A stretch of DNA of 64,000 nucleotides from Fragum whitleyi (lineage: Eukaryota > Mollusca > Bivalvia > Cardiida > Cardiidae): the NCBI GenBank assembly GCA_948146395.1, contig OX411543.1:31081058-31145057 (forward strand). Reading direction: 5' to 3'. A model generated the notes under the pieces. It was not told the origin of the DNA and searched no databases. It worked only from the letters and a program-made list of their open reading frames with translations. Below are positions 901 to 36,190 of this stretch, in pieces. The first letter of the stretch is position 1, and each line of letters starts with the position of its first letter. Made by a program: the position numbers and the translations under genes.

Positions 901-3591
901 TTTTAGCTCACCTGAGCACGAAGTGCTCAAGGTGAGCTTTTGTGGTTAGGTGGATGTCCGTCGTCCGTCGTCAGTCGTGCGTCGTCCGTCGTCCGTCGTC
1001 AACATTTGCCTTGTATGCACTCTAGAGGCCACATTTTTTGCCCAATCGACTTAAAATTTGGTCAGAATGATTGTCTTGATAAAATCTCGGACGAGTTCGA
1101 AATTGGGTCAACTGGGGTCAAAAACTAGGTCACAGGGTCAAATCTTAGAAAAACCTTGTATGCACTCTAGAGGCCACATTTTTTGCCCCATCAACCTGAA
1201 ATTTGGTCAGAATGATTGTCTTGATGAAATCTCAGACAAGTTCAAAATTGGGTCAACTGGGGTCAAAAACTAGGTCACAGGGTCAAATCTTAGAAAAACC
1301 TTGTATGCACTCTAGAGGCCAAAATTTTTGCCCAATCAACCTGAAAATTGGTCAGAATGAATGTCTTGATGAAATCTCGGACGAGTTCGAAATTGGGTCA
1401 ACTGGGGTCAAAAACTAGGTCACAGGGTCAAATCTTAGAAAAACCTTGTATGCACTCTAGAGGCCACATTTTTTGCCCAATCAACCTGAATTTTGGTCAG
1501 AATGAATGTCTTGATGAAATCTCGGACGAGTTTGAAATTGGGTCAACTTGGGTCAAAAACTAGGTCACGGGGTCAAATCATAGTAAAACCTTGTATGCAC
1601 ACTAGAAGCCACATTTTTTGCCCAATCAACCTGATTTTTGGTCAGAATGATTGTCTTGATAAAATCTCGGACGAGTTTCAAATTGGGTCAACTGGGGTCA
1701 AAAACTAGGTCACAGGGTTAAATCTTAGAAAAACCTTGTATGCACTCTAGAGGCCACATTTTTTGCCCAATCAACCTGAATTTTGGTCAGAATGAATGTC
1801 TTGATGAATTCTCGAATGAGTTCGAAATTGGGTCAACTGGGGTCAAAAACTAGGTCACAGGGTCAAATCTTAGAAAAACCTTGTATGCACTCTAGAGGCC
1901 ACATTTTTTGCCCAATCAACCTGAATTTTGGTCAGAATGATTGTCTTGATCAAATCTCGGACAAGTTTGAAATTGGGTCAACTGGGGTCAAAAACTAGGT
2001 CACAGGGTCAAATCTTAGAAAAACATTGTATGCACTCTAGAGGCCACATTTTTTGGCCCAATCAACCTGAATTTTGGTCAGAATGATTGTCTTGATAAAA
2101 TCTCGGACGAGTTCGAAATTGGGTCAACTGGGGTCAAAAACTAGGTCACAGGGTCAAATCTTAGAAAAACCTTGTATGCACTCTAGAGGCCACATTTTTT
2201 GCCCCATCAACCTGAAATTTGGTCAGAATGATTGTCTTGATGAAATCTCAGACAAGTTCAAAATTGGGTCAACTGGGGTCAAAAACTAGGTCACAGGGTC
2301 AAATCTTAGAAAAACCTTGTATGCACTCTAGAGGCCACAATTTTTGCCCAATCAACCTGAAAATTGGTCAGAATGAATGTCTTGATGAAATCTCGGACGA
2401 GTTCGAAATTGGGTCAACTGGGGTCAAAAACTAGGTCACAGGGTCAAATCTTAGAAAAACCTTGTATGCACTCTAGAGGCCACATTTTTTGCCCAATCAA
2501 CCTGAATTTTGGTCAGAATGAATGTCTTGATGAAATCTCGGACGAGTTTGAAATTGGGTCAACTTGGGTCAAAAACTAGGTCACGGGGTCAAATCATAGT
2601 AAAACCTTGTATGCACACTAGAAGCCACATTTTTTGCCCAATCAACCTGATTTTTGGTCAGAATGATTGTCTTGATAAAATCTCGGACGAGTTTCAAATT
2701 GGGTCAACTGGGGTCAAAAACTAGGTCACAGGGTTAAATCTTAGAAAAACCTTGTATGCACTCTAGAGGCCACATTTTTTGCCCAATCAACCTGAATTTT
2801 GGTCAGAATGAATGTCTTGATGAAATCTCGAATGAGTTCGAAATTGGGTCAACTGGGGTCAAAAACTAGGTCACAGGGTCAAATCTTAGAAAAACCTTGT
2901 ATGCACTCTAGAGGCCACATTTTTTGCCCAATCGACTTAAAATTTGGTCAGAATGATTGTCTTGATCAAATCTCGGACAAGTTTGAAATTGGGTCAACTG
3001 GGGTCAAAAACTAGGTCACAGGGTCAAATCTTAGAAAAACATTGTATGCACTCTAGAGGCCACATTTTTTGGCCCAATCAACCTGAATTTTGGTCAGAAT
3101 GATTGTCTTGATAAAATCTCGGACAAGTTTGAAATTTGGTCAACTGGGGTCAAAAACTAGGTCACAGGGTCAAATCATAGTAAAACCTTGTATGCACACT
3201 AGAAGCCACATTTTTTGCCCAATCAACCTGAATTTTGGTCAGAATGATTGTCTTGATAAAATCTCGGACAAGTTTCAAATTGGGTCAACTGGGGTCAAAA
3301 ACTAGGTCACATAGTAAAATCTTAGAAAAACCTTGTATGCACTCTAGAGGCCACTTTTTTTGCCCAATCAACTTGAATTTGGTCAGAATGATTGTCTTGG
3401 TGAAATCTCAGATGATTTCGAAATTGGGTCAACTGGGGTCAAAAACTAGGTCACAGGGTCAAATCTTAGAAAAACCGTGTATGCACTCTAGAGGCCACAT
3501 TTTTTGCCCAATCAACCTGAAATTTGGTCAGAATGAATGTCTCGACAGTTCATTCAGGTGAGCGATTAAGGGCCACTATGGCCCTCTTGTT
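901..3591 (+). mobile_element. Family A tandem-bodied element (Helentron-like, pearl-like)
   Basis: The 5' end is TTTTAGCTCACCTGAG, followed by a hairpin (CTGAGCACGAAGTGCTCAAGG) and a GTCCGTC-rich stretch. The body is about 17 tandem units of 145 bp. The 3' end has CAGGTGAGC, an inverted match to the 5' end, then hairpin GGGCCACTATGGCCC and TCTTGTT. This is the layout of non-autonomous Helentrons and of bivalve pearl-type elements. No transposase or helicase frame is present. It sits in an FUBP intron, 52 bp from an acceptor. Confidence 0.8.
1020..3560. repeat. 145-bp tandem array with 1016-bp higher-order period
   Basis: Each unit contains TTGTATGCACTCTAGAGGCC, GGTCAGAATG and CTAGGTCACAGGGTCAAAT. 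Unit starts recur every 145 bp. The variants then repeat as a block: the units at 1058, 1203, 1348, 1493 and 1783 reappear nearly unchanged at 2074, 2219, 2364, 2509 and 2799, a 1016-bp shift (seven units plus one base). A third block from 3090 is internally deleted. Confidence 0.9.
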
Positions 3592-3643: not shown

Positions 3644-3810
3644 GAGGGGAAACTATAAAACATATCAACTCCACGTCAGGAGCTTATGTAGAATTACAGA
3701 GAAACCCAGGTCCGAACCCAAATGAGAAAATCTTTAATTTGCGGGGTGAACCTCAACAGATACAGACGGCTATTCAGATGATCTGTGAAAAGGCTGGCCT
3801 TCCCTATCAG
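3644..3810 (+). CDS. FUBP1/KHSRP: FUBP/KHSRP exon: C-terminal half of last KH domain
   Basis: The exon follows a CAG acceptor (3641-3643) and ends at CAG|GTAAAG. It starts with two bases that complete a Gly codon and ends in phase 0. The translation begins at the GxxG loop side of the KH fold (GGETIKHINSTSGAYVELQR) and continues through NPGPNPNEKIFNLRG to EKAGLPYQ. This is the standard second half of KH4 in the FUBP family: helix after the GxxG loop, the variable loop rich in Pro/Asn, beta3 and the C-terminal helix. The upstream half must come from an exon outside the window. The acceptor lies only 52 bp downstream of the 3' end of a 2.7-kb transposable element, so the element sits almost against the branch-point region. 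Confidence 0.92.
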
Positions 3811-3827
3811 GTAAAGTCTGGCAGTAT

Positions 3828-3925
3828 TAACCCTTGTCACGCTGAATAAATACCTTGGCAAAAATTGAGGTAAAATCAAAGGGCTCAAAGCCTTGGAGTC
3901 CCTTATTGTAAATCGGTAATTATAT
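3828..3925. mobile_element. MITE family T end fragment
   Basis: TTAACCCTTGTCACGCTGAA, ATACCTTGGCAAAAATTGAG and AAAGGGCTCAAAGCC match the end of family T, just after the FUBP donor. Confidence 0.45.
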
Positions 3926-3934
3926 ACCACAAAA

Positions 3935-4186
3935 CTATGTTTGGGAGGGTATATTGGAATTGGCTTGTCGGTCGGTAGCTTTTTTTTTGTCCAGTAGTTT
4001 TCTCAACAACTAATAGGTGGATTTGAATTTTCATTGAAACTTTACACGTTATCAATATCGGGCAGAGATGTGCAAGAGATATTTTGGTAATGATCCATTG
4101 TCAATTGGCAATTATGTCTCTTTGATGCAAAATTGCTTTTCAAGCATTTTTAAGGGGATATTAGTATGCTTTGTAACTGTATAGTT
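3935..4186 (+). mobile_element. Family S head fragment plus unit
   Basis: GGGAGGGTATATTGGAATTG with GTCGGTCGG and one body segment (GGGCAGAGATGTGCAAGAGA). A similar body segment is at 34440-34500. The right end is replaced by family D. Confidence 0.45.
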
Positions 4187-5166
4187 TATTAGTCCCCTAC
4201 CGGTGTTCACACCGGAGGGGACTATAGGTTTGCCCTCCGTCTGTCCGTCCGTCCGTCTGTCCGTCCGTCCGTCCGTCCGTCCGTCTGTCCGCTCAAATCT
4301 GGATCCCGCGATAACTTAAAAACTAAGCAAGCGTTTTTGATGAAAGTTGGTATATGACTAGATGGCAATGTGTAGATTATGCACATCATTTTATTTTTGT
4401 TTTTCGACTTAAATTGAGGTTGCTATGGTTACGGAAATAGTGAAAATATGGCAAAAAATGGGATCCTGCGATAAGTTAATAAGTAAGCAAGCTAATTTGA
4501 TGAGACTTGGTATATGACTAGATGGCAATGTGTAGATTATGCACATCATTTTATTTTTGTTTTTAGACTAAAATTGTTGTTGCTATGGTTACGGAAATAG
4601 TGAAAATATGGCAAAAAATATTGGATCCTGCGATAAGTTAATAAGTAAACAAGCTAATTTGATGAGACTTGGTATATGACTAGATGGCAATGTGTAGATT
4701 ATGCACATCATTTTATCTTTGTTCTTTGACAAAAAGTGTGGTTGCTATGGTTACGGAAATAGTGAAAATATGGCAAAAAATGGATCCTGCAATAACTTAA
4801 TAACTAAGCAAGCTAACTTGATGAAACCTGTTTTAAAATGTAAAAAAAATTATAAGCCATGTTAGTCAGGGTGGTGATGCAGCAGTATTAATCACCTCCA
4901 GTGAAAGTTCTCATTTCTTACCAACAAGACTGAAGAAAAACATCTTGGATCAGACAAGGTAACTGTTATTGATACTATTTCTTGCATCTGTCTATTGCTT
5001 CCATGAATTGTATAGTGGGCACAGCAGAGACAACAACTCATGTAAGTCTTGTTTAACCCTTTAACAAGACCTGGTTTTGACGTCCCTGATAGAATTGGCG
5101 TGGGAAAACATTGAGACAAACAAAGCCGGTAGGGGACTTATGCCCATGTCCAACATGGCTCTTGTT
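4187..5166 (+). mobile_element. Family D tandem-bodied element
   Basis: The 5' palindrome AGTCCCCTACCGG...CCGGAGGGGACT is followed by a TCCG-rich stretch. Three body units of about 155 bp follow (GCGATAAGTTAATAAGTAAG...GGTTACGGAAATAGTG). Near the 3' end CCGGTAGGGGACT (5126-5138) is the exact reverse complement of the first 13 bases, followed by hairpin CCATGT/ACATGG and CTCTTGTTT. It is in an FUBP intron. Confidence 0.75.
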
Positions 5167-5396
5167 TAAGAATAGAATTTTGAAAACTTTCTGGTTAAAG
5201 AAGGCAAAAAAGGTGGTGTTGGAAAATATCAGTCTGCACATATGCACAGGCATGTTTTCTTTTTTACCTCTCACACTTTGTTGTAATCTGTTAGAAGATA
5301 ATGAAATGTTTCCATGACAAGATAAATATTCATTTGTATTATGATTCTCAGAAGTTCCAAATTCCAATTTTGAATGTACATCACATCCAAGTAAAA

Positions 5397-5737
5397 TACA
5401 GTAAAACTTGTATTGAGGGACCACTTACGGGACCACCAAAAAGCTGTGATTAAGAATGGTTGCTTAATACACATTTTGTTTACAAATAGGAACCATAAAT
5501 TTTTTGAGTATGTATATTTTTTAGAATTTCTCAATAATCCTGTGTTGTAAAACACTAATCAGAATCATCTCAATGAGATGTTTTATTGAGTTTTAATAAC
5601 ATAGGATTAATTTATGATCAAGTTTGGACCAATGATATCCATTTTGTCAGATACTTTGAACTAAGAAAGGGGATTCTGAAAAAGGTCACTTAATTGGTTG
5701 TTTAAGAGGCGTGGTCGCTCGAGCAAGATTGACTGTA
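5397..5737. mobile_element. MITE family X, copy 1 (FUBP intron)
   Basis: Starts TACAGTAAAACTTGTATTGA and ends GCTCGAGCAAGATTGACTGT, A. Terminal TACAGT/ACTGTA resembles Tc1/mariner-type ends. Diverged inverted similarity continues inside (GGACCAC versus GTGGTCG). It ends 19 bp before the first snoRNA copy. Confidence 0.6.
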
Positions 5738-5755
5738 TCTGCAAATATTTTGAAG

Positions 5756-5887
5756 AAGCACATTAGTAGAACCCTTTCTCCATTCATGAAGATAAGGGTG
5801 GGAAAAAGTGTGCAAAATGAAGTCAGTCAAGGATTCGCTAACACTATTTTACATGAATAGCGTTTGATAGTAGACCTTGATACATAT
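5756..5887 (+). ncRNA. H/ACA box snoRNA candidate, copy 1 (intronic)
   Basis: Two-hairpin H/ACA architecture in a host-gene intron, sense to the host. Hairpin 1: lower stem GCACA (5758-5762) with TGTGC (5809-5813), internal loop, upper stem ACCCTT (5771-5776) with AAGGGT (5794-5799). H box AAATGA (5815-5820) fits ANANNA. Hairpin 2: lower stem TCAAGG (5827-5832) with CCTTGA (5875-5880); upper stem AACACTATT with AATAGCGTT (5840-5848 / 5856-5864, one A-C mismatch). ACA is at 5882-5884, three bases before the end. The hairpin-2 pocket arms are TTCGC on the left and GATAGTAGA on the right. They pair with GCGAA and UCUACUAUC, leaving UA unpaired as the pseudouridine site. Pocket-to-ACA distance is 16 nt and the hairpin-1 pocket-to-H distance is 15 nt, both canonical. 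Family membership is inferred from structure only. Confidence 0.8.
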
Positions 5888-6653
5888 TCAGAGCTCAAGA
5901 GTAAGTATAATTCTTGCTCAGAATATCATGTGCAAAAATATCTCATTTAGCAAAATTAATTGAGAATTTTTGCCAAAAAAATTAACCAATGCCTTCTCAA
6001 AATTACAATTTGCATTGATATTTTTCTATCCTTCAGCCAGTTTCAATGAGATTTATGGCAGAAAATGAGAGAATTTCTCTACCCAAAATGTGCCCTGCAA
6101 GAGTAGGGTGTAAATTTGTTTTAAAAATGACTTATTTTACTATTGGTTATTCATAACACTATTTTGAGAAAGCAAAATTGAATCAAGACAAATCCAATGA
6201 GTAATTCACATCATTGATTTTAGATGAGAGTTGACAGGTTATGATTGTCAATCACTCTCTTTTGTATAGATCACTGTAGGATCTAGGGTCTGTCATCATA
6301 TTTTCTTTGAGACAGCTAATCTAGAATAAAAATGTAATTGAGAGAACCTTGGTGAGTTTTACATATTTTCTTTTCTAGACCAGATTAAGATAATCTTGTT
6401 TCAAAGAAAAATCTAGTGCTTTTTGTTACATATGAAAGAAAATTTCACTCTCCAAATTTATTTCTAAAACAAGGAAACAAAGGAATACATAACTATTTTG
6501 CATTAAGTTTAAACTTGTTGAGTGATACTGTATATGTATAAGCCAAATATATTTGTGAGGACTTTATGCTAGAGGAAATAAGGATAACCGAGAGAAAGTA
6601 ATTTTTGGTGCCTAATTGGGTTGTTACATAAAAAACTTTCAAGAGGATGAAAT
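5888..6653. repeat. Flanking sequence of the snoRNA duplication unit
   Basis: Intron sequence between snoRNA copies 1 and 2. The part around 6110-6235 (CATTGATTTTAGATGAG and preceding bases) recurs in diverged form at about 6810-6945 after copy 2. This shows that more than the RNA itself was duplicated. No coding signal is seen. Confidence 0.5.
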
Positions 6654-6787
6654 TAGCACAACATAGTAGAACCTTTTCTCCTTCAATGGAAACAAGGGTG
6701 GGATAAAGTGTGCAAAATTAAATAGATCAAGGATTCGCTAACACTATTTTACATGAATAGCGTTTGATAGTAGACCTTGATACATAT
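6654..6787 (+). ncRNA. H/ACA box snoRNA candidate, copy 2 (intronic)
   Basis: Second copy with all elements kept: GCACA (6656-6660) pairing with TGTGC, upper stem of hairpin 1 around ACC/GGT, H box AAATTA, hairpin 2 with a 7-bp lower stem ATCAAGG/CCTTGAT, ACA at 6782-6784. The roughly 58-bp hairpin-2 stretch is identical in the three copies, while the hairpin-1 loop and the H-box surroundings have diverged. In this copy the hairpin-1 right arm GGGATA and left arm ATAGTAGA can pair with UGUCCC and UCUACUAU on either side of UA, better than in copy 1. Confidence 0.8.
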
Positions 6788-6964
6788 TCAGAGCTCCGAA
6801 TGTAAGGAGTATTTTTGTTTTGAAAAATTATGACATATTTTTACTGTTTACTTATAACCCTATGTTTAGAAAACTCAATGGAATTGTCTCATCAAGATGA
6901 TTCCAATGATTAATTTACAACATTGATTTTGGATGAAAATAATTTATTTATAAGAGCATAAAAT

Positions 6965-7104
6965 AAGCACAACATAGTAGAACCCTTTCTCCTTCAATGG
7001 AAACAAGGGTGGGATAAAGTGTGCAAAATTATTATTAAATAGATCAAGGATTCGCTAACACTATTTTACATGAATAGCGTTTGATAGTAGACCTTGATAC
7101 ATGA
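6965..7104 (+). ncRNA. H/ACA box snoRNA candidate, copy 3 (intronic)
   Basis: Third copy: GCACA (6967-6971) with TGTGC, upper stem ACCCTT/AAGGGT, H box AAATTA followed by a short ATT expansion, hairpin 2 identical to the other copies, ACA at 7099-7101. The two guide pockets are intact. Copies 2 and 3 are more alike than either is to copy 1. The segment between copies 2 and 3 resembles part of that between copies 1 and 2, so the unit duplicated locally with its flanks. Confidence 0.8.
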
Positions 7105-7171
7105 AACTTATCTCTTTTTACATCATTTATGAAGTTGCAAGGAACCCTTCACCAGTGTCTGACAAAAGCTG

Positions 7172-7448
7172 AGGCCGCCGTCAAAGGGCAGTTTTTTAGT
7201 GCGTCAGCCTGTCAATCTAGAGGTCCCGGGTTAGATCCTCAACAGGGCACTCATTCTTTCTGACTTTTTGTCTTTCGCCAATGGGCTGATAATGGTAGAC
7301 CTATGTGAAATAGCAACTGGAGGCTAGGAAAAGATGTGGTTGTACTGGTGAGAGAAATATCAGGAAACCATTGTTAAGCACTCCAGCTGTGATATAACTG
7401 AAAAAAAGATTGAAAGTGGCATAAAACTCCATTCCATTGATCAATTCA
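7172..7448 (+). mobile_element. tRNA-derived SINE, copy 2 (FUBP intron)
   Basis: GTGCGTCAGCCTGTCAATCT, AGAGGTCCCGGGTTAGATCC (B-box remnant), CACTCATTCTTTCTGACTTT, GTACTGGTGAGAGAAATATC, CACTCCAGCTGTGATATAAC. The A box is degraded. Confidence 0.7.
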
Positions 7449-7684
7449 CCAGTGTCTGAGATTATTAAACATCTTCCTTACTCAACTGGCAATCAAATAT
7501 TAAATTTGAATAAATGGTTTTATCACTTGACTGTACATTAAATGTTGTTAGTTTTAATTTAGAAGTTATTATTTTCACACAGTTATCCTATAATTTCAGA
7601 CAAAATGCAGCACTTATCTTGGAATGAATTTTAGTAAAAATTCTCAATTCAGTTTCAAAATAAAAATATAATTTCTGTCCCAGT

Positions 7685-7926
7685 GGCCCGTTTTACTAAA
7701 CATCTTACGCAAAATCTAATCGTAAGTCAAAATGACAAATAGTACCTGGTGTTTTCATTCATCGTTAGATTCTGCTTTGCAATATCTCATCGGAATTGTC
7801 TTTAGAAGACGATTCCAATGAGATGATGCAAGGCAGAAATTTATATTTAGTTACTAATCTAGAAGCAACTTAAATTTTAGACTTGCGCAAAAAATGATCG
7901 TAAGATGTTTAGTAAAAACGGGCCCC
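7685..7926. mobile_element. MITE family N, copy 1 (FUBP intron)
   Basis: Inverted ends GGCCCGTTTTACTAAACATC and GATGTTTAGTAAAAACGGGC. The core has TTGTCTTTAGAAGACGATTC and CAATGAGATGATGCAAGGCA. About 240 bp. Confidence 0.75.
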
Positions 7927-8365
7927 AGGTCTGTAGATCTGGTGAGTGCACTTTTCGAGGCCCACTACTTCATGTAAAGTGGTGAACGATATGTGCTAGA
8001 TAAATATCCAAGGTATCGGTCATCCTTGATTGATTGAAGGAATGAACGCTGTACTTGGAACATTTTATATGCTACTTTAGGAATACTGTGATTTTCATAT
8101 TGCCGTATGAAAAAATATGCCCCTGTCAACCAATATAGCAATTTATCAGCTCCTCCACAAAATTGTGTTCAATCTATTTGAATTTCAACCTGTCTTAAAT
8201 TTTGGAAAATATGCTTGCAGTAGAGGTCATCAAGGGAATCTTTGAAAAAAGAAATCAAATGCCGTGGAATAATTATCATACTTAAAGGTTGTTTGTGACC
8301 ATTCATACTGTGTAAAAAGTAGGCAGTCTAGTGTGGAATATGCATGTTTATTGTTTTTATTTCAG

Positions 8366-8529
8366 CAAAATGATGACATGTTCCAAGGGCCTGGAGGTCC
8401 AGGGGGTCCTGGAGGACCTGGGGGTCCAGGTGGCCCTCCACCAGGGGGCCCAGGTGGTCCCTACGGTGGCCCCAGTCCCCCTGGTCCAGGAGGGTTTGAC
8501 CAGTATGGTGTACCGCAAGGTGGGCCAGG
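8366..8529 (+). CDS. FUBP1/KHSRP: FUBP/KHSRP exon: Gly/Pro-rich linker
   Basis: The acceptor TTTATTTCAG precedes it and the donor is GG|GTAAGT. It starts in phase 0 and ends with two bases of a Gly codon. It encodes QNDDMFQGPGGPGGPGG followed by more GGP/GPP repeats and FDQYGVPQGGPG. FUBP proteins have a Gly/Pro-rich low-complexity linker between the KH domains and the C-terminal YM region, and this exon is that linker. The repetitive GC-rich sequence leaves open shadow frames on both strands; only the frame that joins its neighbours is real. Confidence 0.9.
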
Positions 8530-12447: not shown

Positions 12448-12665
12448 CAATCTCCGACGGTGGTACTCATTCTTTCCGCCTATTTGACTCTCACTAATGG
12501 GTTGATAATCGTAGACCTATTTGAGATAGCAGCTGGAGGCTAGGAAAGGATGTTGTGGTTGTACTGGTCAAAGATATACCAGGAAACCATTGTTAGGTGC
12601 TCCAGCTGTTGCGATATAACTTGGAAGATATTGAAAGTGGCATTGAACTCCAATCAATCAATTGA
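12448..12665 (+). mobile_element. tRNA-derived SINE, copy 4, 5'-truncated (FUBP intron)
   Basis: GGTGGTACTCATTCTTTCCG, CACTAATGGGTTGATAATCG, ACCAGGAAACCATTGTTAGG, GCTCCAGCTGTTGCGATATA and the tail CAATCAATCAA. The tRNA head is missing. Confidence 0.65.
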
Positions 12666-13134
12666 CTATACATGCCTGTATTTGATATGTTCAATGGAAT
12701 CTACTTGTCGAGACAATTTAAACAAGTACAAACAACATAGGGTTTCAATGAGAAATTAAGACTGGCTTAGACTGGCTCTGCCCCCTCTTATCTGTAACTC
12801 TGTTAAGATTGAATGATTTATTGATGCTGAACACTACTGTTCAGAGCATAATTTAGTATTACCTTTGTGGCTTGGTTACCTGATTATAGTTTCTCAAGGG
12901 GTTTGGAATTCCCATGTCTGGCTTGTCCGAAACTGTCTTTTCTACCCAAGCAAGTTCATTTTTCTAGACTACTTGTCTGTAATAGCTTTATTTATTAATG
13001 AAAGTTCTTATTTCTTAGAGAATTATCTCGTTTACTTTTCCTGTTACTCCATCTGTTATGTCTAAATAACCATTTAATCAATGCTGAACAGGGGCCTATA
13101 ACCCCTTATCTTTAAGGTATGACTTCTACTTCAG

Positions 13135-13298
13135 CTGTGAACCCACAGACAGGGCAGCCAGACTACTCCCAGGCCTGGGCCGAGTACTACAGACAGCAGG
13201 GATATGTACAACAAGCTAATGCCATCCTGGCCCAGTACCAGCAACAACAACAACAGACCCCTGGGGGACAACAGCCCGGTCAGCCACCACAACAGTGA
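13135..13298 (+). CDS. FUBP1/KHSRP: FUBP/KHSRP terminal exon: second YM motif and stop
   Basis: The acceptor is TACTTCAG. Two bases complete a Thr codon, then VNPQTGQPDYSQAWAEYYRQ, QGYVQQANAILAQYQ, a Gln run and PGGQQPGQPPQQ lead to TGA at 13296-13298. YSQAWAEYYRQQ is the last YM motif of the FUBP/KHSRP family, and the Gln/Pro-rich end matches the usual C-terminus. The start in this frame is fixed by splicing rather than by an ATG. Confidence 0.93.
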
Positions 13299-13660: not shown

Positions 13661-15076
13661 GACATAATCAAAGATAATGCTATGTTACTTGGTTTTAAAA
13701 TTGCCATTAAAAATTTTGTGTTTTTGAGAAATTATGATTTACATATAAATGACATGTACTTTATAAATATGACCTATATTCTTAATTGATTTGGTCTGTA
13801 TTCTGATATGATGAGTTATATACTGTATTACTTGTAAACTCTTATTTTAAATGCATACGAGAACAATCTTGATTCACCATTTGACCTCAAATATATTTGA
13901 CTTACTTCAAATGCATACTACAATAGATGATGCTCATTTCATGCATGTACAGTGTTGCAAAATAGTTTATCAATCATCATGATATAATAGAGATTTATGC
14001 ATTACATTGATCTGTGAACATTCATCTAATGTTATGATAATGACAGATTTTATACAGAGTATTTTCTTTATCTTCTTGATTTTGTATTATTATGCATTAT
14101 ATCTTGAAAATATGATTTGTTCTTGATATATACATGAAATACGTTTGTTGTGGTTTTAATGAATTGAATATACATGCTAAATACCCTTTTCTTTAACATA
14201 TTGTCACTTTTATATCATAAATTGAAGTAAAATGATGGAATTTGTGAATTTTATAATGATGAAAATGAATGTCATGTTGTTTTAATATGCTCTGAAAACA
14301 GGTTATTTCCACTATATGCATATGATGAGTCATGCTTATTTTTACTTCAAAAATATAATTTGATTTGTATATTTTAGAATTTAATAGTAAATATGACAAA
14401 ATAACAGCAACTGTCATTATAAATGAAAATGTTTACCATTCATGTCATTTACCTATTGTTTTGATTGAAAATTTCGTAATGATTACATTGAACAGTATGC
14501 ATAATGCTCACAATATGAATGTTTTCATTGATGTAAATAGAATACTGTGCATTTTTACCGAATATATCAAGATTGTGATCAGTTATTGATATGTTGAAAT
14601 ATCCTTGATCGAGTATTGCTTTTGAAAATTAAGTGCTAGAGTACATGCTTCAATCCTCAAACAAGATACTGGTTAGATAGACATCATCCAAAGGTGAGTG
14701 AATTTGTCCATGTCTGACCTAAACAAATGGCAACCAGCCCTGTGTCAAAGATGACAAAACAATCCTTACTGTTTACAAATTATACCCTCTTGCATGCATG
14801 TGCACATTAGAATTTGGGTATATTTGATACTGATATTCTTCTAGCAATGAATTACTTTTATCAGCAATAAGAGTTAAAAGATTCCACTGCATTAAGTTGC
14901 AGTTAAACTACAAACCACAAGTTCAGATGCTAGATATATCATCATGTACTTAAGATTTAAAAGGTAAGTTCTATCTGTTTATGTACTAGATTGGAAGGGG
15001 TTGACACTAACTTCCATGAGTATAGAATTCAGGAGAATCCCAAACTTTTTCAAACCCTGTTCATTTGCTTGCTAGC
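13661..15076. other. AT-rich sequence after FUBP, possible long 3'UTR
   Basis: Low GC, many short open frames, no splice-bounded coding signal. It may belong to a long FUBP 3'UTR or be intergenic. Confidence 0.4.
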
Positions 15077-15346
15077 TGTTATAGCACAGTTGGTAAAGCA
15101 CCGGACTGTCAATCTAGAGGTCCCAGGTTTGATCCCTGACGGTGGCACTCATTCTTTCCGACTATTTGTCTCTCACCAATTGGTTGATAGTCGTAGACCT
15201 TGCCAGATAGTAGCTTAAGGCTACGAAAGGATGTGATGGTGGTACTGGTGAGAGAAATACCAGGAATCCATTGTTAGGTGCTCCAGCCGCCGCAAAATAA
15301 CTGAAAAAATGTTGAAAGCGGCGCTTAACTCCATTCAATCAATCAA
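15077..15346 (+). mobile_element. tRNA-derived SINE, copy 1 (most complete)
   Basis: The tRNA-like head has an A box (TAGCACAGTTGGTAAAGC) and a B box (GGTTTGATCCC) around 15083-15137. The body has CACTCATTCTTTCCGACTAT, CTCACCAATTGGTTGATAGT, GTACTGGTGAGAGAAATACC and TTGTTAGGTGCTCCAGCCGC. The tail is CAATCAATCAATCA. Transcription would be by RNA polymerase III. Confidence 0.75.
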
Positions 15347-22851: not shown

Positions 22852-23066
22852 TCTTCCCGAGTTCAATCCCCGACAGTGGCACTTATTCTTTCTTACTATT
22901 TGTCTTCCACCAATGGGTTGATAATCATAGACCTATGTGGGATAGCAGCTGGAGGCTAGGAAAGGGTGGAACTGGTGTGAGAAATACTAGGAATTTGTTG
23001 TTAGGTGCTTCAGCTGCGTGATATAACAAAGATTGTTGAAAGTGATGTTAAACCCCATTCAAACAA
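22852..23066 (+). mobile_element. tRNA-derived SINE, copy 5, 5'-truncated
   Basis: Starts within the B box (GAGTTCAATCCCCGACAGTG) and continues with the shared body and TGTTAAACCCCATTCAAACA. Confidence 0.65.
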
Positions 23067-27891: not shown

Positions 27892-28199
27892 AACACAATA
27901 TTAATTCTGAAATTAGTTTTGTTACCATTCGGTAGGTGTAAAAAAGTTTTATTACATTTTTCTAGATGTAAAATAATTGAAAAATAAATGATATCGATGT
28001 TGGGAGAATTTCACAGAAAATGAGGTGCGTCATTAAACACATGGGTTATATGGCATCAAAAGCATCAACATTCCAGTAAAAAATAAACGTTGATAAATGG
28101 AAAGAGTTATCTGTACACAGTAAGACACATGACACCAATTTTATTGCAAAATAAGAGGTTATTTAACATAATTGGGTACAATACAAAATTCTATTGGAT

Positions 28200-28284
28200 G
28201 AGTACCCTGCAGAACCAGTCTATATTTGACGAGGCTATAGCCGAGTCAAAATATAGACTGGCTCTGCAGGGTACAAATCCAGTG
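28200..28284. repeat. Fold-back hairpin, ~29-bp arms
   Basis: GTACCCTGCAGAACCAGTCT, ATATTTGAC pair with GTCAAAATATAGACTGGCTC, TGCAGGGTAC across a short loop. An open frame crosses it by chance. Confidence 0.7.
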
Positions 28285-35200: not shown

Positions 35201-35387
35201 CTTAAAATTTGATAAAGGAGGCTGAAAAGGAAACTGTTTGTAAAATGTTCATATATGATCAAGCAGGCTATTATTAGACTCCAAACATTCCTTCTTCAAA
35301 AATTGAAGATACTTTGACCCTTGGACTCCCTTTAGTATCAAACCTTATGTCCTGGTAACTTCTTATTCAATGGTTTTTATTTTTCAG

Positions 35388-36190
35388 ATAGAACAGCACA
35401 TGTCATACAAATAGCAGCATCCCATAACCATAACCAATTTTCTGCGTTTGTTATACCAAAAAAGAAGATATCAACAAAGGCAGCAGATGTAACTGGGGTA
35501 TCTATGGTGGGCGAGACCATGATTGTAAAAGGCAAAGAAGTGGAAGCCATCTACATTAGAAATGCTATAGAAAAATTTATTGAATTCCTTAAAACCTGTC
35601 AAAATAATAGAAAATTAATATTAGCTGGCCATAACATTGAGTCCTTTGATTGTAAAGTTTTATTGAATTTATTGAAAAATTGTGGTAAACTTACAGATTT
35701 CAAAAACAATGTTACTGGTTTCATGGACACAATGAAATTGTTCAAGAAAATTGTCCCTGGAATGTCGTCATATAGACAAGAATACTTGTTTAATGAACTT
35801 TTAGGTGAAACATATACAGCTCACTCTGCACTAGAAGATGCAATTGCCCTACAGAAACTTTATCATTCTTTAAGAACAGAAACTACAGCCATAAACCTAT
35901 GTGCATTCTCATTTGCTTATGCTGAGAAGGCTTTCAATATCTCTTGTGAAGTAAAGTTAAATCTGCCAAGTCTTCAGAAAATGATTGAGGAAAAAGTTGT
36001 TAGTGTAGGTTTAGCTAGGACTATTGCAGGAAGTGGTTTAAATTTAAATCATTTGATAATTGTTTGGAAAAGGGATGGTGCGGATGGCTTGCGCCACCTT
36101 TTATCGGAGGTCCATGAGGGGCACATTAGGGTAACGAAATCTGACAAAATTATAACAGCCATAACAAATTACATATCTCAATTAAATTGA
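35388..36190 (+). CDS. DEDDh exonuclease terminal exon (Exo II, Exo III, C-tail)
   Basis: The acceptor TTTTTCAG ends at 35387. Two bases complete Asp, then RTAHVIQIAASHNHNQFSAF follows and the frame stays open to TGA at 36188-36190. Exo II is AGHNIESFD and Exo III is AHSALEDAIALQKLY, the H-x4-D form typical of DEDDh enzymes. After the nuclease fold come about 100 residues with no recognised domain, ending in KSDKIITAITNYISQLN. They contain a conserved-looking helical segment around LARTIAGSGLNLNHL. A translation from the ATG at 35504 alone would miss Exo I, so that ATG is not the true start. A transposable element begins 41 bp after the stop. Confidence 0.88.

Follow-up and report, generated by a model that had tools for sequence, protein, structure and literature searches.

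Among the closest described relatives of the RNAs analysed here are H/ACA guides listed for neighbouring uridines of the large-subunit rRNA. In yeast 25S rRNA, position 2340 is assigned to snR9, and positions 2349 and 2351 are assigned to snR82, in the excerpted site lists of PMC8307265 and PMC7814045. Human 28S pseudouridines appear at 3823, 3830 and 3832 in the excerpt of PMC6182160. SNORA58 (ACA58) is listed for human 28S 3823 in the corresponding part of PMC12931454, and SNORA62 (E2) is given as a predicted guide for U3830 and U3832 in that of PMC4515611. The latter excerpt places SNORA62 in the host gene RPSA in human and FAU in sponge, and reports it from FAU introns of three Suberites species and as absent from the same intron in a fourth. 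A table for chicken, as excerpted, pairs snR9 with ACA58 for 28S-3333 and lists E2, from RPSA intron 4, for 28S-3340 through its first hairpin (PMC2653536). In the part of the Neurospora survey used here, the snR82-type site stands under the second (ACA) pocket of Nc ACA2 (PMC2780460).

Here, we describe a cluster of RNAs of this kind in a bivalve, Fragum whitleyi. The window, a 64-kb stretch of its genome, holds three copies of an RNA that, judged by its sequence, is of a known kind: a SNORA62/E2-like guide whose first hairpin (HP1) resembles SNORA58. The copies differ from described SNORA62 RNAs in their host gene, in their number within one intron, and in the predicted use of the two hairpins.

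Results

Three H/ACA RNA copies in one intron

By its Pfam domains, the host is a FUBP-type gene. Its KH-domain exon is bounded by the splice signals TTTTGCAG/GAGG and CAG/GTAAAG (the slash marks the junction) and ends in phase 0. Across the predicted intron, the 3' junction CAG/CAAAAT is followed in frame by QNDDMFQGPGG, also in phase 0, and the next exon is Gly/Pro-rich (Table 1). Further downstream, an open frame at 13116-13298 on the same strand as the KH exon encodes a FUBP_C domain (Pfam E 6e-13). The sequence-only reading had placed the cluster in sense orientation within an intron of such a gene, and the placement holds: the two domains flank the cluster on one strand, the copies lie on the plus strand like the host, and the splice signals fit. 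Among the literature matches listed, none by its title presents FUBP as a snoRNA host, which is a weak negative. A FUBP-type host gene may be new for a snoRNA.

Table 1. Features of the predicted host intron and its neighbourhood in the 64-kb window
Feature	Position	Strand	Elements or basis
FUBP host-gene exon with KH domain	3644..3810	+	Pfam KH_1 E 2e-9; upstream of host intron
Predicted host intron, 4,555 nt	3811..8365	+	GTAAAG...TTTCAG; splice signals and frame continuity
Predicted H/ACA snoRNA, copy 1	5756..5887	+	HP1 5758-5813, H box AAATGA 5815-5820, HP2 5827-5880, ACA 5882-5884
Block X	6103..6227		Duplicated with copies 1 and 2; partner 6802-6936; blastn E 2.6e-15
Predicted H/ACA snoRNA, copy 2	6654..6787	+	HP1 6656-6713, H box AAATTA 6715-6720, HP2 6727-6780, ACA 6782-6784
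Block X'	6802..6936		Counterpart of block X (6103-6227), directly behind copy 2
Predicted H/ACA snoRNA, copy 3	6965..7104	+	HP1 6967-7024, H box AAATTA 7026-7031, HP2 7044-7097, ACA 7099-7101
Fourth H/ACA RNA candidate	7946..8065	+	HP1 7948-7996, H box AGATAA 7998-8003, HP2 8007-8059, ACA 8060-8062, end TTT
Next FUBP exon, Gly/Pro-rich	8366..8529	+	Open frame and splice signals

The three copies measure 132, 134 and 140 nt, within the range first given for them. As had been described from the letters, HP1 has GCACA/TGTGC as its lower stem in every copy, the H box is of the form ANANNA, the second hairpin (HP2) has a TCAAGG/CCTTGA stem, and an ACA stands three bases before the 3' end. The identity of HP2 among the copies was also borne out: the 54-nt HP2 has exactly three matches in the 64 kb when both strands are searched with up to 3 mismatches, and none in 100 shuffles. 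The copies fold more stably than their shuffled counterparts, with z-scores of -3.80, -3.21 and -3.40 for copies 1, 2 and 3; 0, 0 and 1 of 200 shuffles, respectively, fold equally well.

We scanned the window with a descriptor for hairpin, H box, hairpin and ACA. The plus strand gave 40 raw matches, five of which have two clean hairpins, all three copies among them, with two-hairpin energies of -28.9 to -32.1 kcal/mol. In 300 shuffles, the same scan gave 525 two-hairpin matches. Of these, 15 lie at or below -28 kcal/mol, which amounts to some 0.05 per 64-kb strand, and the lowest reaches -35.8 kcal/mol. The minus strand gave two weak matches (-19.5 and -11.9). The other two clean matches on the plus strand are a fourth candidate at 7948-8065, treated below, and 28112-28278, whose hairpin reaches -47.8 kcal/mol. 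The latter is a long near-perfect inverted repeat, probably not a snoRNA and probably a hairpin-forming mobile element.

The surroundings contain other repeats and coding sequence. A tandem array at 1009-3542, with 17.5 copies of a 145-bp unit, adjoins the KH exon on its upstream side, and several further arrays in the window have units of 160-170 bp. Four stretches, 7209-7300, 15106-15198, 22855-22932 and 12462-12516, resemble each other, the first lying just downstream of copy 3. One of them overlaps an Rfam tRNA match at 15075-15147, and this family is therefore probably a tRNA-derived SINE. On the plus strand, an open frame of 284 aa at 35336-36190 carries two domains, the exonuclease domain RNase_T (1.3e-9) and PML_C, the C-terminal domain of PML (6.5e-22), and another at 52789-53160 matches the sodium:solute symporter family SSF (2e-9). 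Weak Rfam microRNA matches occur elsewhere in the window. The HP2 DNA pattern had no match in viral contigs.

Similarity to SNORA62, ceN58 and SNORA58

The Rfam comparison that the sequence-only reading had proposed gave a divided answer. Similarity to SNORA62, ceN58 and SNORA58 is present below threshold in the cluster, and no snoRNA family reaches its gathering score anywhere in the window. For SNORA62 (RF00091; cut-off 80), copies 1, 2 and 3 score 49.2, 42.1 and 34.7 bits, with E-values of 3.4e-6, 1.5e-4 and 0.0077 in a 64-kb search space, and the match of copy 1 spans the full length of the model. For ceN58 (RF01645; cut-off 60), the scores are 40.1, 42.3 and 34.2 bits; copies 1 and 2 align over the full length, and the score of copy 3 comes from the HP2 part. 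For SNORA58 (RF00418; cut-off 75), the scores are 32.1, 23.8 and 24.5 bits, and the alignment falls on HP1, where the two RNAs agree in the stem ends and in guide letters, with GUAGA on one side of the pocket and GGGA on the other. Since all of these scores lie below the gathering cut-offs, we describe the RNA, by sequence similarity, as SNORA62-like, its hairpin 1 being SNORA58-like, and as a formal member of neither family.

The likeness to SNORA62 (E2)/SNORA6 consists of most of the HP2 pocket letters (UUCGCUAACAC...GUUUGAUAGUA), the layout, and the predicted target region. The RNA differs from SNORA62 in its best score, which stays below the cut-off, in its FUBP-type host as opposed to RPSA and FAU, in having three copies in one intron, in hairpin 1 guides that resemble SNORA58, and in the best-paired U, which is the equivalent of yeast 2351 and not one of the two predicted for human SNORA62. 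The nematode ceN58, to which copies 1 and 2 align over the full length, also shares the HP2 pocket; its HP1 is shown aligned only through the lower stem. With SNORA58 (ACA58), the RNA shares the HP1 stem ends, the guide letters and the predicted target U, whereas hairpin 2 barely aligns.

Tandem duplication and probable constraint

The copies are arranged head-to-tail, and both blast and alignment show that their similarity extends beyond the ends of the RNA. Copies 1 and 2 share the RNA, the 9 nt directly 3' of it, which are identical, and then block X (Table 1), with about 200 nt behind copy 1 and before block X that have no counterpart behind copy 2. For copies 2 and 3, the shared sequence starts at 6641 and 6952. 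As read from these alignments, the copies arose by tandem DNA duplication.

Blocks X and X' are identical at 102 of 123 aligned positions (83%), with 14 gap columns. HP2 with its tail, in contrast, shows no difference between copies 1 and 2 over all 61 positions (Fisher 1.4e-4 against block X), and copy 3 departs from them in the last 2 positions. The earlier suggestion that HP2 is identical through either constraint or recent copying therefore stands in its first part: recent copying alone does not explain the identity, because the sequence duplicated along with it has diverged. Because the 9-nt 3' flank does not differ between these two copies either, some of the HP2 identity could stem from gene conversion. 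Unless conversion homogenised HP2, the constraint on it appears clear from these comparisons. HP1 is identical at 47 of 56 positions between copies 1 and 2, a level indistinguishable from block X (Fisher 1.0) and lower than HP2 (Fisher 9e-4). Divided by element, the stems and guides of HP1 are kept at 32 of 33 positions and the rest at 17 of 22 (p 0.033), in one weak test on a slightly different alignment. Constraint on HP1 is suggested by this distribution.

Predicted target sites in 28S rRNA

A pattern search of genome contigs with 28S letters led to three contigs, L001, L002 and L003, and two such searches of viral contigs gave no match. L001 is 3,101 nt long, scores 1779 bits as a eukaryotic LSU, and belongs to a record whose title names a bacterial MAG; the 28S used comes from a eukaryote other than the host. 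L002 and L003 hold the target stretch with G, not A, after the HP1 target U. In L001, 822 of 827 U's were scored by pairing with the pocket on both sides of each U, with 1000 dinucleotide shuffles as controls. With the HP2 stem boundary placed wrongly and less slack allowed, a first scan had failed to pick out the HP2 target (157 of 300 shuffles did as well). In the final scan, the boundary of the HP2 upper stem and the slack were reset, arms had to be at least 3 long, and one setting served for all sites.

Both pockets find complementarity on both sides of a U in this 28S fragment. HP2 pairs best at U2720, with a score of 37 that none of the 1000 shuffles equals. With the other stem choice, 1 of 1000 shuffles is as good, and U2718 comes second at 27. 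At U2718, which corresponds by spacing to human 3832, HP2 scores 8 or 27 depending on the stem choice, and at U2716, corresponding to human 3830, it scores 5. For HP1, U2709 is the best of the 822 U's in all copies, and this U corresponds by spacing to the SNORA58 site (28S 3823/yeast 2340). The score in copies 2 and 3 is 32, matched by 6 of 1000 shuffles; in copy 1 it is 27, matched by 71 of 1000 and not significant alone. The HP1 and HP2 sites are 11 nt apart. Only 6 U's, U2720 included, lie within 12 nt of U2720, so it is unlikely that both hairpins point there by chance.

We infer the equivalence of sites in L001, yeast and human from spacing and from published site lists. U2718 and U2720 lie at +9 and +11 from U2709, the spacing of yeast 25S 2340 to 2349 and 2351, and +9 is also the spacing of human 3823 to 3832. 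By these offsets, the target U's equal those of yeast snR9 (25S 2340) and of snR82 at 2349 and 2351 (snR82 is also listed for 25S 1110). These are two separate RNAs in yeast where there is one here, and the likeness to them is one of target sites. The Neurospora assignment of the snR82-type site to the second pocket of Nc ACA2, as excerpted, matches HP2. The chicken table, as excerpted, agrees with the present reading in pairing snR9 with ACA58, but it does not match the roles proposed here for the two hairpins: it gives the first hairpin of E2 to 28S-3340, a position 7 nt away from 3333, where the snR9/ACA58 site lies.

A fourth candidate in the same intron

Downstream of copy 3, a further sequence has two hairpins, an ANANNA box and ACA three bases from its end (Table 1). 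Its stems are GCAC/GTGC and TCCAAG/CTTGGA, and its 3' end is ACATTT. It ranks fourth on the plus strand in the descriptor scan, at -30.7 kcal/mol, an energy like those of the three copies, but folding 7940-8070 gives a z-score of only -1.84, and 11 of 200 shuffles fold equally well. Its Rfam similarity is weak: SCARNA24 scores 31.8 bits (cut-off 70; E 0.0019 in 221 nt, 0.56 in 64 kb), and further H/ACA-type matches are SNORA58 at 20.1 and SNORA19 at 19.1. Its best target in the 28S fragment L001 is no better than in shuffles, a scan run without shuffles gave no clear target in the part of 18S available (L004/L005, contigs from a viral collection), and the candidate itself had no match in plasmid records. 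We consider it quite likely that 7946-8065 is a real H/ACA RNA. It is unrelated in sequence to the three copies, and the cluster is probably larger than three.

Discussion

Rfam similarity, structure and guide-target matches all support the H/ACA identity first read from the letters. We are highly confident that the three copies are intron-encoded box H/ACA snoRNAs of the SNORA62-like guide class. By analogy with this class, the RNAs would be released from the spliced FUBP-type intron and would assemble with the dyskerin complex. HP2, the SNORA62/E2-like part, would then direct pseudouridylation of the 28S U equivalent to yeast 2351 or, less likely, 2349 (human 3832), and HP1, the SNORA58-like part, would direct that of the U equivalent to yeast 2340 (human 3823). 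The rRNA stretch UCUACUA(U) would be read by the 5' guide strand of HP1 and also by the 3' guide strand of HP2. Because the stretch UCUACUA is shared, one RNA could act at only one of the two sites at a time. Tandem duplication inside the intron would have produced the three copies and may raise dosage. Taken as a whole, with both target assignments, tandem copies and a probable fourth RNA, this explanation is the one we favour, with moderate confidence.

The part played by HP1 may be smaller. The RNA could be a SNORA62-like snoRNA that uses HP2 only, its HP1 being a structural arm and the match at the 2340/3823 site a product of chance or a decayed remnant. The divergence of HP1 as a whole at the rate of the flank would fit such an arm, and so would the 71 of 1000 shuffles that equal the match of copy 1. 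The match of copies 2 and 3 fits it less well, being rarely equalled by shuffles, best of all the U's scored, and so close to the HP2 target. Moreover, the stems and guides of HP1 are spared, and SNORA58, listed for 28S-3823 in the excerpt cited above, aligns to HP1 at its guide letters. We regard an HP2-only guide as rather improbable. A separate question is how many of the copies work. In copy 2, the upper stem of HP1 has a G-U pair where copies 1 and 3 have G-C, 6 nt are inserted in the H linker of copy 3, and the SNORA62 scores drop from copy 1 to copy 3, though the ceN58 score is highest for copy 2. These differences would suit a single working gene with two copies drifting to pseudogenes, a reading compatible with our favoured explanation for whichever copy works. 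Nevertheless, no copy has lost HP2, either box, the ACA tail or the main guide letters, and we lean against such decay while giving it some weight.

The copies might also be a spreading snoRNA-derived repeat, a snoRNA retroposon that landed in the intron, with some or all copies lacking function. Mobility of snoRNAs by retrotransposition is described in the excerpt of PMC4515611, and repeats lie nearby, such as the probable tRNA-like element. The sequence shared by the copies is not confined to the RNA, however, but passes its ends and takes in block X, and we reject a retroposon origin because the duplication exceeds the RNA. The head-to-tail order within one intron, the want of a further copy in the 64 kb at up to 3 mismatches, and hairpins, boxes and pockets intact in all three copies speak against it as well. 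No A-tail of the retroposon type is visible by eye in the sequence. We judge this origin very improbable.

The dual-guide explanation that we favour would place two guides in a single RNA, each of them inferred to read UCUACUA. This pairing of two guide functions in one RNA may be new. The combination is not of a new kind, since the excerpt of PMC2653536 describes guiding functions recombined or separated between RNAs in chicken versus human. The RNA could even represent the ancestral animal form of two vertebrate guides: a dual-pocket RNA serving two nearby 28S pseudouridines, its pockets approaching a common rRNA stretch from opposite sides and hence acting alternately. Vertebrates would later have divided these tasks between SNORA58 and SNORA62. 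We think that this tentative idea is more probably wrong than right. A sponge SNORA62 primer carries TTAGTAG near its 3' end in the excerpt of PMC4515611, which hints that the HP1 guide is old.

The cluster adds to an animal genome a probable set of guide-RNA genes, in a gene that may be a new host for snoRNAs. Should both pockets work, the functions of SNORA58 and SNORA62 would be linked in one molecule, and whether the two were split or fused would become testable. In addition, the overlapping target stretches would make the two modifications by one RNA mutually exclusive, which would raise the question of their order in ribosome assembly.
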